From the NCBI GenBank assembly GCA_947467185.1, contig CANIHR010000009.1, positions 1-42,950 of the forward strand: a DNA stretch of 42,950 nucleotides, in the 5' to 3' direction. Below are positions 24,771 to 31,133 of this stretch, in pieces; within the stretch, counting starts at the first letter, position 1, and every line of letters starts with the position of its first letter. The position numbers and the translations under genes are program-made. The notes below the pieces were generated by a model, which saw only the letters and a list, made by a program, of their open reading frames with translations, was not told where the DNA came from and did not search any database. Source of the stretch: Bryobacterales bacterium. Lineage in GTDB: Bacteria > Acidobacteriota > Terriglobia > Bryobacterales > Bryobacteraceae.

Positions 24771-25262
24771 TTACTTCTGGAAAGAAGCGATGAGGGCATC
24801 AAAGGCCGCCGTTTGGGCGGCGATGGTCTTTGCCGGGCCGCTAAACTTGACGAACAGGTTGCCGCCCGGCCCTTCCACGATGGCGGCAAGCATACGGTTG
24901 CCGGCTTTGGGCGTCTGTGAAGTCACGGCAGCGCCACCGCTGGCCGTGTAGGTGCCGCTGACGTCCATTCGGGTGACGGGAAGGCCGTGGATCATTGATT
25001 TGGTGACCTTCGAAGGGGCCGGTTTGCCGTCAGCACCCGCAAACTGACTGGACCACCGGGCGATGTTGGCGTCCACGGTACCGCCCTGGCCGGGACCGAA
25101 GAAGTAAACGACGCATTCGGCGTCACCCGCCACATACTGGGCGGCGCGCATGGGGGCCTCGCCTTTGGAGGTCCAACCCTGGGGGGCGGTCCACTTGATA
25201 CCGGCGGCCGACTCGGCCCACACCATGGCGGCCGCAGCGGCCAGAACCAGAAGAATACGCAT
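24771..25262 (-). CDS. Secreted protein of unknown function
   Basis: A 163-residue protein with a clear Sec signal (MRILLVLAAAAAMVWAESAAG). The mature part reads as a small beta-rich domain: IKWTAPQGWTSKGEAPMRAAQY, ECVVYFFGPGQGG, GLPVTRMDVSGTYTAS, LAAIVEGPGGNLFVKFSGPAKTI, ending with a helix FDALIASF. The pattern of protein-quality residues resembles proteins that summarise a stress or binding role, but I do not recognise a named family. It stands alone on the minus strand between the sigma factor gene (155 bases away) and the divergent tadA. Not obviously part of the sigma operon; it could be one of its targets (inference). Confidence 0.72.
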   Translation of the reverse strand: MRILLVLAAAAAMVWAESAAGIKWTAPQGWTSKGEAPMRAAQYVAGDAECVVYFFGPGQGGTVDANIARWSSQFAGADGKPAPSKVTKSMIHGLPVTRMDVSGTYTASGGAAVTSQTPKAGNRMLAAIVEGPGGNLFVKFSGPAKTIAAQTAAFDALIASFQK

Positions 25263-25300
25263 ATCCTGAGTTTATGGCTCTGCCCCCCGACGTCGCGACC

Positions 25301-25780
25301 ATGGAGAAAGACGATGAGGTCTGGATGCGGCTGGCGCTGGCGCTGGCGGACGAGGCTGCTGAGGCGGGCGAAGTGCCGGTGGGCTGCGTGCTGGTCTGGA
25401 ATGGTGAGGTAATCGGGCAGGGTCGGAATTCACCGATTGAGTTGCTGGACCCGACGGCACACGCGGAAATGATGGCGATCCGGCAGGGGGCGCTGGCGCT
25501 GGGGAATTACCGACTGGAAGACGCCACGCTTTATTGCACGCTGGAGCCCTGCGTGATGTGCGCCGGGGCGCTGGTGGCAGCGCGGGTGAAAAGGCTGGTG
25601 TTCGGGGCGCGGGATCTACGCTTTGGCGGGGTCCGGAGTAAGTTCCAGATCGCCGATTCGCCGGTGCTGAATCACCGGGTGGAAGTAACCGAGGGGGTGC
25701 TGGGGGCGGAGGCCACCACGCTGCTCCAAAGGTTCTTCGGGAGCCGTCGGGATCCGGGCGCGAACGCCGCTTCGCGATAA
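25301..25780 (+). CDS. tadA: tRNA adenosine(34) deaminase TadA
   Basis: A 159-residue cytidine/deoxycytidylate deaminase-fold enzyme that converts A34 to inosine in the anticodon of tRNA-Arg(ACG). The zinc and catalytic residues are H54 and E56 in THAEMMAI and C84/C87 in EPCVMCAGAL; VPVGCVLV precedes them and FGARDLRFGG follows, all hallmarks of TadA. The start ATG at 25301 gives the N-terminus MEKDDEVWMRLALALA, which lines up with the family start; ATG at 25274 would add nine residues. It is divergent from the secreted protein gene and followed within six bases by the SDR-like gene. Its substrate tRNA is not in this window; the tRNA-Arg present is the CCG isoacceptor. Confidence 0.93.
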   Translation: MEKDDEVWMRLALALADEAAEAGEVPVGCVLVWNGEVIGQGRNSPIELLDPTAHAEMMAIRQGALALGNYRLEDATLYCTLEPCVMCAGALVAARVKRLVFGARDLRFGGVRSKFQIADSPVLNHRVEVTEGVLGAEATTLLQRFFGSRRDPGANAASR

Positions 25781-25786
25781 TGGTAC

Positions 25787-27343
25787 TTGCTCCCTACAGA
25801 AACTGATAGTTCCTACGAGGCGTTTACCGAACGGGTCCGCGCCGCGATGGACGTGCTTGAATCGATTGCCACGGGCCGTTATCTGCTCGACAAGTTGTCC
25901 GCTGCGGACCGCGAGAGACTGCACCGCGTGGTTGCGCAGGTCCACAACCCGGATAAGCAGGAGTTGCGGCGGATGGCGAAGGCCGCCGAACGCGCCCGCA
26001 GCGAAGCGCAGAAGGATCGTGCCGATTCCGTCCTCCAGGAGACCGGAATTCGCGCCCTGCGCCGCAAGCCGGTGTTCACCACGCCGAACTTCTTCCTGCC
26101 GGATCACCTCGCGCAGCCGGGGTTTGATTCCCGGAAGCTGGACGAACCGGAACCGGAGAAAAAGTACACGGAAACGCCGGATTCGCACCACTGTTATGTG
26201 TGCAAGGTCCACTACAGCGTGGTCCATCATTTTTACGACCAGATGTGCCCGACCTGCGCGGAATTTAACTACGCAAAGCGGTTTGAACTGGCGGATCTGA
26301 GTGGCCGGGTAGCGTTGTTGACGGGTGGCCGGGTCAAGATCGGGTACCAAACCGGGATGAAGCTGTTGCGGTCCGGCGCAACGCTGATTGTGACCACCCG
26401 TTTCCCCCGCGATTCGGCGCAGCGTTACGCGCAGGAGCCGGACTTCCAGGATTGGGCCCACCGGTTGCATATCTATGGCCTGGATCTGCGGCATACGCCG
26501 AGCGTGGAGGCACTGTGCAGCCATCTGCTGGCGACGCTGCCCCGGCTGGACTTCATTGTCAATAATGCGTGCCAGACCGTGCGGCGTCCACCAGAGTTTT
26601 ATGCGCACATGATGGAGACCGAACGGGCGGCACTGGAGAATATGCCGGAAGAGACGCACCGGTTGCTGGGCTCCTATGAGGAATTGCGCGGTGAGGCGCT
26701 GCCGGAGAACAGTTCGGCGCTGGCGCTGAAGGATGGGATCACGCGGGCGGCGGAGTTATCGCAGTTGCCGCTGTTACCGGAAGACCTGGCGGCAGGGAAG
26801 CAGTTATTCCCCGAGGGCCGACTGGATCAGGACATGCAGCAGATCGACCTGCGAGGCCGGAATTCATGGCGCCTGGTGATGGACGAAGTTTCGACCGTGG
26901 AATTGCTGGAAGTGCAGTTGATCAATGCAATTGCGCCGTTCATTATCGATGCGCGGCTGAAGCCCCTGATGATGAAGACGCCGGGGCGGGAGAAGCATAT
27001 TGTGAACGTGTCGGCGGTGGAAGGCCAGTTTTACCGGCTTTGCAAGACGACGCGCCACCCGCATACGAACATGGCGAAGGCCGCGCTGAACATGATGACG
27101 CGAACGGCGGCGGCGGATTATCAGATCGACGGCATCCACATGAATGCGGTGGATACCGGGTGGGTGACGGACGAGGATCCGGCGGAGATTGCAGCGCGGA
27201 AGACGGCGGAGATGCGGTTCCATCCGCCGCTGGATATTGTGGACGGCGCAGCCCGGATTCTGGACCCGATTATTACCGGCATCAACACCGGCGAGCATAT
27301 CTGGGGCCAGTTCCTGAAGGATTACAAGCCGACGGACTGGTAG
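25787..27343 (+). CDS. Atypical SDR protein with N-terminal zinc-knuckle region
   Basis: A 518-residue protein. Residues 1-165 contain a helical region then a candidate zinc site C136/C139 and C154/C157 (HCYVCK, MCPTC). From about 172 a Rossmann fold begins: VALLTGGRVKIG at 175-186 for the cofactor, VNNAC at 258-262, VNVS409 as the catalytic serine strand, and K431 in HTNMAKAAL. The position where SDR enzymes have the catalytic tyrosine of YxxxK is T427. A 70-residue insert (about 270-355) separates the halves. The motif HPHTNMAKAAL appears in a distinct SDR subfamily I recall from other organisms, but its role is unknown to me. The start is TTG at 25787 (an in-frame stop lies at 25778); ATG at 25847 is possible. 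Confidence 0.8.
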   Translation: MLPTETDSSYEAFTERVRAAMDVLESIATGRYLLDKLSAADRERLHRVVAQVHNPDKQELRRMAKAAERARSEAQKDRADSVLQETGIRALRRKPVFTTPNFFLPDHLAQPGFDSRKLDEPEPEKKYTETPDSHHCYVCKVHYSVVHHFYDQMCPTCAEFNYAKRFELADLSGRVALLTGGRVKIGYQTGMKLLRSGATLIVTTRFPRDSAQRYAQEPDFQDWAHRLHIYGLDLRHTPSVEALCSHLLATLPRLDFIVNNACQTVRRPPEFYAHMMETERAALENMPEETHRLLGSYEELRGEALPENSSALALKDGITRAAELSQLPLLPEDLAAGKQLFPEGRLDQDMQQIDLRGRNSWRLVMDEVSTVELLEVQLINAIAPFIIDARLKPLMMKTPGREKHIVNVSAVEGQFYRLCKTTRHPHTNMAKAALNMMTRTAAADYQIDGIHMNAVDTGWVTDEDPAEIAARKTAEMRFHPPLDIVDGAARILDPIITGINTGEHIWGQFLKDYKPTDW

Positions 27344-27352
27344 AGATCAGCG

Positions 27353-27760
27353 TTAGCCGAGGCCGAGGAGGCGCTCGAGCCTGACCTGAAGAATGACCAC
27401 GTCGGGCGATTCCTGGACGGCTTCGTTATACCGTACCTGGAAGTCTGTGCCGTCCTCACGAGGCGACATAATTTCGCGGACCTGAGCTTCGAGCGCGAGG
27501 GCGTCGGGTTGAGTCGCCTTGCTGCGGCGTGACAGGGCTTCGTCGATTTCGACGACAAGGGTCGAGATGGTCTTCAGCCAGGCGAAGTGGGGGTCCCCCA
27601 TAACGAGGGCGAGGTAAGGACCGGGGCCTTTAATGGGGCCATTGGCTGCTTCGTACCTGGCTTTTTCGCGGTCCAGAAGAAGTTTGTGCTGCTGCAGCAG
27701 CAGGGTGCTGACGTGGGTGAGGCGTTCGCGGCTCTCGGCGCTGATGGGTTCCGGTGTCAT
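27353..27760 (-). CDS. Small cytoplasmic protein of unknown function
   Basis: A 135-residue, largely helical protein without signal peptide or membrane segment: LTHVSTLLLQQHKLLLDREKARYE, then GPGPYLALVMGDPHFAWLKTISTLVVEIDEALSRR, and a C-terminal helix ESPDVVILQVRLERLLGLG. The conserved-looking HFAWLKTISTLVVEIDE segment suggests a real family, but I cannot name it. It lies nine bases downstream of the thioredoxin-like gene on the same strand, so the two are probably cotranscribed, and it converges on the SDR gene with nine bases between stops. Confidence 0.68.
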   Translation of the reverse strand: MTPEPISAESRERLTHVSTLLLQQHKLLLDREKARYEAANGPIKGPGPYLALVMGDPHFAWLKTISTLVVEIDEALSRRSKATQPDALALEAQVREIMSPREDGTDFQVRYNEAVQESPDVVILQVRLERLLGLG

Positions 27761-27769
27761 CTGAAACTT

Positions 27770-28294
27770 CTATTGTGTCAGCGTGCGGACCTGGGTGGTG
27801 AGATCGGCGTACGCGGCTTCGTCGAAGGGGCCGTTGTGCTGCCAGCGAACAATACCTTTGGCATCGAGCAGAATCAGGTAGGCAGCGTCCGGTGCTTTGA
27901 ACCCGACGGCCTTTTTCCAGGGATCTACACCACCATAGACGGTAATAACGTTTTCCTGGTCGGCCACAGGGGTACCGCGACGCATGCCGCTGTCAATGAA
28001 CCACTTGCCCATACGGGCCATGCCTCCGATGAGGGGGATTTCGTAGAAGGTGACGGCGGGGTTGTGGTCAAAATCCTTGCGGAAACGGCCCACCCAGGCT
28101 TCGACTTTGAAGCGGGAGGCATAGGTGAAGCCGAGCGCGAGCAGCGCAACCTTGCCTTTGGACGCTTCGGGCAGGACGGCCGCCTTACCGGTGAGGAACT
28201 CACCCTTCAACACGGGAAGCGGCTCACCCGCTTTAACGGCGGCGGGGGCATTCATGGAAACGGCGAGGAGCAGCATGGGCAACATACGTTTCAT
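27770..28294 (-). CDS. Secreted thioredoxin-fold-like protein, possibly ATP10-like
   Basis: A 174-residue protein with a signal peptide (MKRMLPMLLLAVSMNAPAAVKA). The body follows the thioredoxin-like order: GKVALLALGFTYASRFKVEAWVGRF (strand and helix where a CxxC would sit), AVTFYEIPLIGG, then AYLILLDAKGIVRWQHNGPFDE at the end. No CxxC pair is present, so it is not a disulfide oxidoreductase. The terminal DAKGIVRWQHNG and the GMARMGKWFIDSGMRRG segment recall the ATP10 assembly-factor family, a tentative match. The ATG at 28294 opens the signal; the frame further upstream is noise. It is divergent from the ThuA gene with 67 bases between. Confidence 0.7.
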   Translation of the reverse strand: MKRMLPMLLLAVSMNAPAAVKAGEPLPVLKGEFLTGKAAVLPEASKGKVALLALGFTYASRFKVEAWVGRFRKDFDHNPAVTFYEIPLIGGMARMGKWFIDSGMRRGTPVADQENVITVYGGVDPWKKAVGFKAPDAAYLILLDAKGIVRWQHNGPFDEAAYADLTTQVRTLTQ

Positions 28295-29354: not shown

Positions 29355-31133
29355 ATGAGATATAGCCTGCTTGTCTTTGTCCCGCTTGCCCTGTTGGCGC
29401 AGCAACCTGTTCCGCAGGAAGTCTTCAACAGGAATTGCGCAGGCTGCCATGGCGAAGATGCGCGGGGTTCCGGGAAGGGGCCAGGGCTGACGCTGAATCC
29501 GCGCGTGGCGGAGCAATCGAACGAACAGCTTCGGGCCTACCTGGAGCGAGGGAATCCGGCGACGGGCATGCCGTCGTTTTCGGATCTGCCGGCGGCGGAT
29601 CTGCTGGCCCTTGTGCGGCATCTGAAGCGGCTGAATGTGGAGACGATTATCAGTCCGCCACCGGTACCGGGGACCGCGAAAAAGGTATCGTTCGGACCTC
29701 CGCAACCAGGCGACTGGACAACGTACAACGGCAGCGATTCGGCGAACCGCTTCAGCGCACTGAAGCAGATCACGACGGCGAATGTGGCTTCGCTGAAGGT
29801 GAAGTGGGTGTTCCCGATCCAGTATTTTGGGCTGGAGACGACTCCGATTGCCGCCGATGGCTTCCTGTATGTGACGGGGCCGAATCAGGTCTACGCGCTG
29901 GATGCAGTGACGGGCGCTCAGGTGTGGCACTACTCCCGTCCTGCGAGTCCGGGCATGCTGGGGGACTCAAAACTCGGAACAAATCGCGGGGTGGCGATTC
30001 TGGGGAACAAGGTTTTCTTTGTGACGGACAACGCACACCTGCTGGCTCTGGACCGGGCGGAAGGCAAGTTGCTTTGGGAAACGGCGATTGCGCCAGGTAC
30101 GCAGGAACAGCCCTACGGCGGGACGATTGCGCCGCTGATTGTGCACGACAAAGTTATTGTCGGGGTGGCAGGCGCGGATCACGGGATCCGCGGTTTCGTC
30201 GCCGCCTTTGAGCCGGAAAAAGGCGAGCTGGCATGGCGCCGATGGACGGTTCCGAAGAAGGGTGAGCCGGGTATCGAGACCTGGCAGGGGAAGGAACCAG
30301 TGGCGGGTGGCGGATCGACCTGGCTGACGGGGTCGTACGACGCTTCTACAGATACGCTGTACTGGGCGACAGGCAATCCCTGGCCGGATTCCGACGATGT
30401 GGACCGTCCGGGCGACAATCTCTACACGAATTGTGTGCTGGCGCTGGACCCGAAGAGCGGCAACGTGAAGTGGTATTACCAGTTCACGCCGCATGATGTG
30501 AAGGACCGCGACGCGACGGAGCCGAATGTTCTGGTGGATACGGTGTATCAGGGGAAGCCTGCGAAGTTGCTGTTGCATGCCGATCGCAATGGCTTTTTCT
30601 ACGTGTTTGACCGGACGAACGGGAAGATTTTGCTGGCGAAACCATTCATCCGGCGCGTGGACTGGGCGAGCAGCATCGGCGCGGACGGGCGTCCGGTGGT
30701 GAAGGACCCGAAGGGCTGCCCAAGCGATGCGGCGAACTGGGATGCAACGGCGTTTTCCCCGCTGACCAAGATGTACTACCTGATGGCGCTGGAAGAGTGT
30801 GTGGGCGACAAGCCAGGCGGGTATCCGGACCAGAGTGGGCAGCGTTTTCTGCGGGCACTGAACATTGAAACGGGTGAAATTGTATGGGAAGTGGCGCAGC
30901 CAGGGGCGGCGCGGGCGAAGACATGGACGGGGGTGCTGGCGACGGCTGGCGGCGTCCTGTTCTACGGTCGGCCGAATGGCGGATTCGCGGCGGTGGATCA
31001 GAAGACCGGGAAGTCGCTGTGGGAGTTCCCCACCAATGTGCGGATGAAGGCGTCAGCGATGACGTTTTCGGTGGGCGGCAACCAGTATGTGGCTGTAGCG
31101 GCAGGACCGAATATTTTGTGCTTCGGGTTGTAG
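29355..31133 (+). CDS. Cytochrome c-PQQ beta-propeller fusion (quinohemoprotein)
   Basis: A 592-residue exported protein. After the signal peptide (to about residue 17) a cytochrome c domain covers about 18-100 with C28-A-G-C31-H32 and M72 in TGMPSF. The rest is an eight-bladed PQQ-type propeller: WTTYNGSDSANRFSALKQI near 120, blade motifs YALDAVTGAQVWHY, LALDRAEGKLLWE, LALDPKSGNVKWYYQ, ALNIETGEIVWE and AVDQKTGKSLWEF, and WDATAFSP near 455 on the face used for PQQ stacking. It should oxidise an alcohol or aldose in the periplasm and pass electrons to its own heme. The heme domain is N-terminal, whereas classic quinohemoprotein alcohol dehydrogenases carry it at the C-terminus. AGGAAG precedes the ATG. 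It is paired with the ThuA gene. Confidence 0.9.
   Translation: MRYSLLVFVPLALLAQQPVPQEVFNRNCAGCHGEDARGSGKGPGLTLNPRVAEQSNEQLRAYLERGNPATGMPSFSDLPAADLLALVRHLKRLNVETIISPPPVPGTAKKVSFGPPQPGDWTTYNGSDSANRFSALKQITTANVASLKVKWVFPIQYFGLETTPIAADGFLYVTGPNQVYALDAVTGAQVWHYSRPASPGMLGDSKLGTNRGVAILGNKVFFVTDNAHLLALDRAEGKLLWETAIAPGTQEQPYGGTIAPLIVHDKVIVGVAGADHGIRGFVAAFEPEKGELAWRRWTVPKKGEPGIETWQGKEPVAGGGSTWLTGSYDASTDTLYWATGNPWPDSDDVDRPGDNLYTNCVLALDPKSGNVKWYYQFTPHDVKDRDATEPNVLVDTVYQGKPAKLLLHADRNGFFYVFDRTNGKILLAKPFIRRVDWASSIGADGRPVVKDPKGCPSDAANWDATAFSPLTKMYYLMALEECVGDKPGGYPDQSGQRFLRALNIETGEIVWEVAQPGAARAKTWTGVLATAGGVLFYGRPNGGFAAVDQKTGKSLWEFPTNVRMKASAMTFSVGGNQYVAVAAGPNILCFGL

Follow-up and report, generated by a model that had tools for sequence, protein, structure and literature searches.

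The locus described here raises the question of what an SDR-like protein does once the catalytic tyrosine of its active site is gone, and whether such a protein is still an enzyme. The protein is encoded by a 518-aa open reading frame in a Bryobacterales contig, of which the whole stretch analysed, 42,950 nucleotides long, is referred to as the window. Judged from its sequence, it represents an uncharacterised and distinct family of classical-SDR descent, equipped with a module of four cysteines (C4 module) and an insert of about 100 residues. The features on which the first part of the argument draws are the following:

25787..27343, forward strand: gene of the C4-module SDR family, 518 aa, TTG start, stop included
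25787..26179, forward strand: N-terminal helical extension, variable, residues 1-131 (0/131 columns invariant)
26180..26290, forward strand: C4 module, residues 132-168, CYVCK-x13-CPTC
26591..26893, forward strand: insert of ~100 residues, residues ~269-369
25274-25780, forward strand: tadA-type deaminase gene (Pfam MafB19-deam/dCMP_cyt_deam_1), 6 bp upstream of the SDR gene

The gene, its distribution and its neighbours

The reading frame at 25787-27343 on the forward strand has the appearance of a genuine gene subject to purifying selection. The dN/dS ratio between the window gene and its 90%-identical relative L001 is about 0.06 (NG86; the single usable pair), synonymous sites being saturated between the window and L002, which makes that pair unusable for dN/dS; between L003 and L005 the dN/dS terms are 0.083/2.015. 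A consensus scan of positions 25100-27800 returned no promoter-like site. Two Pfam families score above their cut-offs, adh_short (7.7e-16) and adh_short_C2 (8.5e-15), in two pieces flanking the insert, and three other Pfam matches of the 518-aa protein are below their own cut-offs. NCBIfam gives 164 matches, and among the 25 listed none reaches the curated cut-off, the top one being gluconate 5-dehydrogenase PRK08213.1 with 63.1 bits against a cut-off of 279. Two annotated copies carry no more than the label 'SDR family NAD(P)-dependent oxidoreductase'. Among the papers listed by topic searches of PMC none describes the family, and its motif strings drew no paper from the PMC full text. In the excerpted part of PMC6774946, zinc-binding proteins of one Xanthomonas are catalogued in silico, 15 SDRs among them by accession.

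The gene is single copy in the window's genome, where the next match is another SDR-like protein (E 7.2e-9). This second-best match, at L082 1429-2283 (forward strand), carries the motif YCASR, in which Arg replaces the Lys of YxxxK. A scan of the genome collection found 215 relatives at E<=1e-3; 80 of them, with 65-90% identity over the best segment, were kept. Their hosts are Acidobacteriota, Xanthomonas, Stenotrophomonas and kin, Rhodanobacter and Dokdonella, together with one betaproteobacterial and one Gemmatimonadaceae bin. A 65%-identical copy in a record titled Bacillus subtilis (L070) has neighbours in common with Stenotrophomonas loci and probably reflects a contaminated assembly.

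The distribution is patchy. In genome counts that include the centre genome and that rest, for the larger samples, on the scoring of only a few candidate places in each genome, the gene was found in 12 of 247 sampled Acidobacteriota genomes (E<=1e-60), in 6 of 61 genomes of the window's own family (E<=1e-50), in 2 of 299 of the phylum of the Xanthomonas centre G306 (E<=1e-50), and in 49 of 200 of the phylum of the Gemmatimonadaceae centre G307 (E<=1e-40). Ten of these last 49 positive genomes hold two matches each. Paired copies are seen as L135/L136 in G624, L137/L138 in G679 and L139/L140 in G684, and one copy from each pair (L136, L138 and L140) groups with the other two in a separate clade with support 100/100. 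More distant members are carried by plasmids of Deinococcus, Streptomyces (two) and Tsukamurella, 4 among 72,556 records, and by one viral-collection contig (L115); phage records gave no match at E<=1e-8 and PADLOC no match to a defence system. In a tree of 55 rows, 25 of them ungrouped, the Pseudomonadota and Acidobacteriota labels need two changes each, which fits some transfer between phyla without proving it; several of the branches are long.

Neighbouring genes, called by a GC-bias script, offer no shared partner within four genes of the family gene in 109 loci (702 proteins). The largest neighbour clusters of these 109 loci span four groups, a count that takes 30 Xanthomonas loci as one group and 14 mostly Stenotrophomonas loci as another. 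It may be low by one at most, L086 having been counted as L001, in which a 200-base piece of L086 does not occur. In Gemmatimonadota, for 18 of 20 loci plus L115, the largest neighbour cluster spans three loci, the script having missed the family gene in the other two of the 20. Ten neighbours from nine loci include eight with unrelated Pfam families and two without any Pfam match. Synteny is local: several neighbours are common to the window and L001, and L075 and L086 have MsrA-like and IMPDH-like neighbours in common. The deaminase just upstream was considered as a functional partner and dropped, because no neighbour is widely conserved across the family. Elsewhere in the window, a PQQ-type dehydrogenase with a cytochrome c domain is encoded at 29355-31133, downstream of a ThuA-like gene. 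On a 67.6-kb Tsukamurella plasmid, the relative at L101 7695-9161 lies between a gene for a 243-aa protein without a Pfam match and a nucleoside hydrolase gene.

C4 module, insert and predicted fold

Conservation was read from 141 loci, which give 120 distinct C-terminal sequences and, with the window row (which repeats one of them), an alignment of 121 rows. Such an alignment of homologs had been proposed with the original prediction as a check, and the active-site motif HPHTNMAK and the four cysteines are invariant in it. C136, C139, C154 and C157 are unchanged in 121/121 rows, so that the C2-C2 site goes beyond chance. Their spacing is C-x2-C-x14-C-x2-C; the zinc knuckle of the original prediction thus stands as a C2-C2 site, which probably binds zinc, and falls as a knuckle, since it is not of the CCHC type. 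The extension preceding it is far shorter in L098 (422 aa in total) and L115 (431 aa in total). The long insert is present as had been described, and six of its 101 columns are invariant (Y272, D354, N359, S360, W361 and V368).

A first AlphaFold model, which used no sequences from outside the family, was of low quality (mean pLDDT 54.3). A second, from 56 rows including 32 other SDRs, reached a mean pLDDT of 77.1; it leans to the SDR fold through these 32 sequences in its alignment, so its fold match is partly built in. The SDR matches found by sequence, in Pfam and in a PDB profile search, are independent of the model. In the second model, 10-residue blocks of 171-260 and 371-410 have pLDDT values of 89-98, confidence is moderate in the loop 411-420 with E412 and K420 (mean 73) and in residues 421-430 (mean 81), and it is low in 461-479. 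The C4 module, also of moderate confidence (pLDDT 72-84), is modelled as short strands at 134-135 and 142-143 followed by a helix at 155-165.

Structure comparison covered residues 169-518, and the part before residue 167 barely entered it. The model superposes on tropinone reductase I (1ae1_B) with Z 25.2 and rmsd 2.7 over 226 residues, on noroxomaritidine reductase (5ff9_C) with Z 24.3 and rmsd 2.2 over 219, and on SDR-Zt with Z 23.9 and rmsd 3.0 over 227. Among the 50 matches listed, Z runs from 25.2 to 23.3 and no single relative stands out; the top Foldseek match is 9kd1_G (E 1.5e-12). Both the sequence matches and the model assign the core of the protein to the SDR fold.

Active-site columns

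The motifs and residues relevant to catalysis are the following:

26321..26344, forward strand: TGGRVKIG, altered glycine motif, residues 179-186, K184 for the middle Gly
26561..26587, forward strand: NNACQTVRR, altered NNAG motif, residues 259-267
26924..26926, forward strand: N380, the SDR active-site Asn, retained (N in 121/121 rows)
27014..27016, forward strand: A410, catalytic-serine column, on which MAFFT, hhalign and the phmmer match to 3cxr concur
27020..27022, forward strand: E412, invariant acid at Ser+2 (121/121 rows)
27032..27034, forward strand: Y416, non-conserved tyrosine (Y 113, S 4, G 2, N 1, T 1 in 121 rows)
27056..27079, forward strand: HPHTNMAK, residues 424-431, all eight invariant (121/121 rows)
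27152..27163, forward strand: DTGW, PG motif with T457 for Pro, residues 456-459

Columns were assigned by aligning the family with 32 other SDRs by MAFFT in three modes. These SDRs derive from one NNAG-type DNA pattern that gave 120 stretches, 80 of which were taken; 43 of the 80 passed a script filter (TG...G motif, YxxxK, 200-330 aa), and removal of near copies left 32. Counts of Tyr and Lys among them are circular, since the filter required YxxxK, the Ser column was unfiltered, and the middle position of the glycine motif was allowed to be G, R, K, S or Q.

The Rossmann motif TGGRVKIG is present as first described. Within TGxxxGxG, the Thr is found in 120/121 rows and both outer glycines in all, and position 184 is Lys in 120/121 rows and Gly only in L095, against Gly in 31/32 of the other SDRs. 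In the NNAG motif, N260, A261, Q263, T264 and R267 are invariant and N259 occurs in 118/121 rows, the Gly being replaced by Cys in 115 and by Ala in 6. Position 457, aligned by hhalign with the PG-motif Pro, is Thr in 120/121 rows and Pro only in L095, against an invariant Pro in the 32 other SDRs; D456 and W459 flank it unchanged.

As for the catalytic residues themselves, the Asn column (N380) holds Asn in 25/32 of the other SDRs. The serine column, with Ser in 31/32 of them, is A410 in 120/121 family rows and Ser in L095, and the assignment of S409 as the catalytic serine in the original prediction was off by one column. MAFFT puts the Tyr column of YxxxK at T427 in each of its three modes, pairwise alignments with 3cxr and 8hjw put it at H426 with a gap of one residue, and the hhalign profile comparison (99.7% probability) at R423 with a gap of four. 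Across the 121 rows, position 423 varies among R, K, G, F and Q, positions 426 and 427 never change, and a Tyr occurs at none of the three; the claim that T427 stands where the Tyr should be was in this respect well founded. Because helix 425-446 of the model is continuous, T427, four residues before K431, is the simplest reading of the Tyr place. The Lys of YxxxK, already recognised at the outset, is K431 in 121/121 rows. By alignment, the catalytic Ser and Tyr are both lost, and N380 and K431 are retained.

Could another tyrosine serve instead? The original prediction named Y416 as a possible substitute, and replacement of the catalytic acid by this residue would agree with its presence in 113/121 rows. 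The eight remaining rows (four plasmid, one viral-collection and three Acidobacteriota) have S, G, N or T there and keep N380, E412, K420, H424, H426, T427 and K431, and Y416 was rejected as the family's substitute acid, a role now regarded as very improbable. Invariant tyrosines are limited to Y137, Y272 and Y513; next to Y416, R417 is Arg in 119/121 rows.

Residues unchanged in 121/121 rows include, in addition to the four cysteines and N380, E412, K420, H424, P425, H426, T427, N428, M429, A430, K431, D456 and W459, and E412, K420, H424, H426, T427, N428 and K431 stay the same even in rows that share as little as 45% identity with the window sequence over 132-518. Invariant columns make up 20/38 of 403-440 against 54/349 in the rest of 132-518 (Fisher p ~9e-7, for boundaries chosen after the alignment was seen). 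This density of invariance leans towards catalysis. It bears on the main rival explanation, according to which the protein is a non-catalytic sensor or scaffold that binds NADP(H) in the manner of NmrA or HSCARG and touches a partner through the C4 module. Such a role would suit the alteration of two of the four catalytic residues, of the Gly of the glycine motif and of the Pro of the PG motif, as well as the fusion of a zinc-like module, and parts of PMC3144213 name NmrA and HSCARG as SDRs with an irregular active site that sense redox state. However, the strip around the active site is conserved more strongly than any other part of the protein and shows no erosion, Asn and Lys are retained, and there is no widely conserved neighbour as candidate partner. 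A sensor or scaffold is accordingly considered unlikely, though it is the strongest of the alternatives.

The divergent member L095 (1498-2901, reverse strand) forms the longest branch and retains Ser 410, Gly 184 and Pro 457, together with T427, HPHTNMAK and the four cysteines. This fits a loss of the Tyr before that of Ser, Gly and Pro, although reversal in L095 is also possible, and would make it a possible intermediate, the least changed member among those found. With L095 as query, a search of 247 Acidobacteriota genomes at E<=1e-20 yielded no genome beyond the 12 already found with the family profile, all of which it recovered, a limited test with at most six candidate places scored per genome. 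Together with the four cysteines and HPHTNMAK in every row, this result bears out the earlier suggestion that the proteins form a subfamily of their own, one whose active site is altered, and the conservation seen then in HPHTNMAKAAL extends through the whole of HPHTNMAK.

Possible chemistry and comparison with known systems

The most likely role of the protein is that of an active enzyme with a Glu/His/Lys relay, on the grounds of the Ser+2 and Tyr-3 residues of SDR-Zt and of the precedent set by the Tyr-less WbpM and PglF. The conservation, the alignment columns and the SDR-like core are observed; the cofactor, the catalysis, the proton route, the zinc and the roles of the insert and the pocket residues are inferred. 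The protein would act on its own as an NADP(H)-dependent oxidoreductase, descended from classical SDRs and with its proton-transfer machinery rebuilt, a reading to which a little less than an even chance is given. The narrower formulation is held tentatively: an active SDR branch in which the Ser and Tyr of N-S-Y-K are replaced by a relay of E412, H424 and H426 acting on K431, with a C4 metal module fused to it.

In this enzyme, the Rossmann half would bind the cofactor. An Arg after strand 2 in SDRs goes with a preference for NADP(H), and the Arg at this place in TTRFP suggests NADP(H) here. Proton transfer would run through the invariant E412 (Ser+2) and H424/H426, with K431. H426 may itself be the functional stand-in for the Tyr, opposite which it is placed in several pairwise alignments, the spacing to the Lys then being longer by one residue. 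K420, R267, Q263 and W459 could aid substrate binding, the insert would cap the pocket, and the C4 module, fused directly before strand 1, would have a part in structure or assembly. As a guess, the substrate would be an imine or an activated C=C bond rather than a plain ketone.

Reduction of a conjugated C=C bond could also follow another route. The 2,4-dienoyl-CoA reductases work without the standard Tyr, by direct hydride transfer, and take the proton from solvent or from one acid. The family might act in the same manner, since it retains Asn and Lys and matches the peroxisomal 2,4-dienoyl-CoA reductase 4fc6 (E 2.2e-8, among 59 PDB matches). The best stretch of this match is, however, the cofactor half only (profile 163-256), as for many of the listed SDRs, and the family lacks a conserved set of genes next to it; this route is thus judged improbable.

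The relay reading draws on the imine-reducing SDR-Zt, in which, according to the sections available of PMC7540600, C150 at Ser+2 is described as proton-mediating: the C150A variant is nearly inactive, C150S is impaired and C150D is like wild type. The same sections report that H158 at Tyr-3 contributes, activity being lowered in H158A. With T427 as the Tyr place, E412 at Ser+2 and H424 at Tyr-3 have the same spacing as C150 and H158. In WbpM and PglF, the Tyr column holds Met, yet both are functional SDRs, as stated in the part of PMC8987622 consulted. An active family would show that, of all oxidoreductase centres, the one studied most can be reconstructed with neither its serine nor its acid; an inactive one would call for an explanation of why an NADP(H)-binding scaffold with a zinc-type module is so highly conserved.

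Set against known systems, the protein is an uncharacterised version of a known fold and not a new kind of system. With the classical SDRs (PF00106/PF13561; FabG, gluconate 5-dehydrogenase, tropinone reductase) it has in common the Rossmann core, on which the model superposes, the T-G and I-G of the glycine motif, NNA, the active-site Asn and the Lys. Contrary to them, the family has Ser changed to Ala, Tyr to Thr, the Gly of the glycine motif to Lys and the Pro of PG to Thr, and bears a C4 module in front and an insert of ~100 residues. The enzyme 4fc6 is similar as an SDR sequence match, but its chain of 277 residues is too short for both additions. The UDP-GlcNAc 4,6-dehydratases WbpM and PglF also do without the Tyr of YxxxK; unlike the family, they act on nucleotide sugars as dehydratases, carry a TDK motif and have Met in place of the Tyr (PMC8987622, in the same part), and they are absent among the listed sequence and structure matches of the family. 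Noroxomaritidine reductase and SDR-Zt, which reduce imines and enones, resemble the model with Z scores of 24.3 and 23.9, which are not above those of other SDRs beyond the tie margin. SDR-Zt is further alike in the positions of its functional residues, Ser+2 and Tyr-3, but, in the excerpts of PMC7540600, it keeps Ser148, Tyr161 and Lys165, no zinc-type module is mentioned, and its Ser+2 residue assists the Tyr instead of replacing it.
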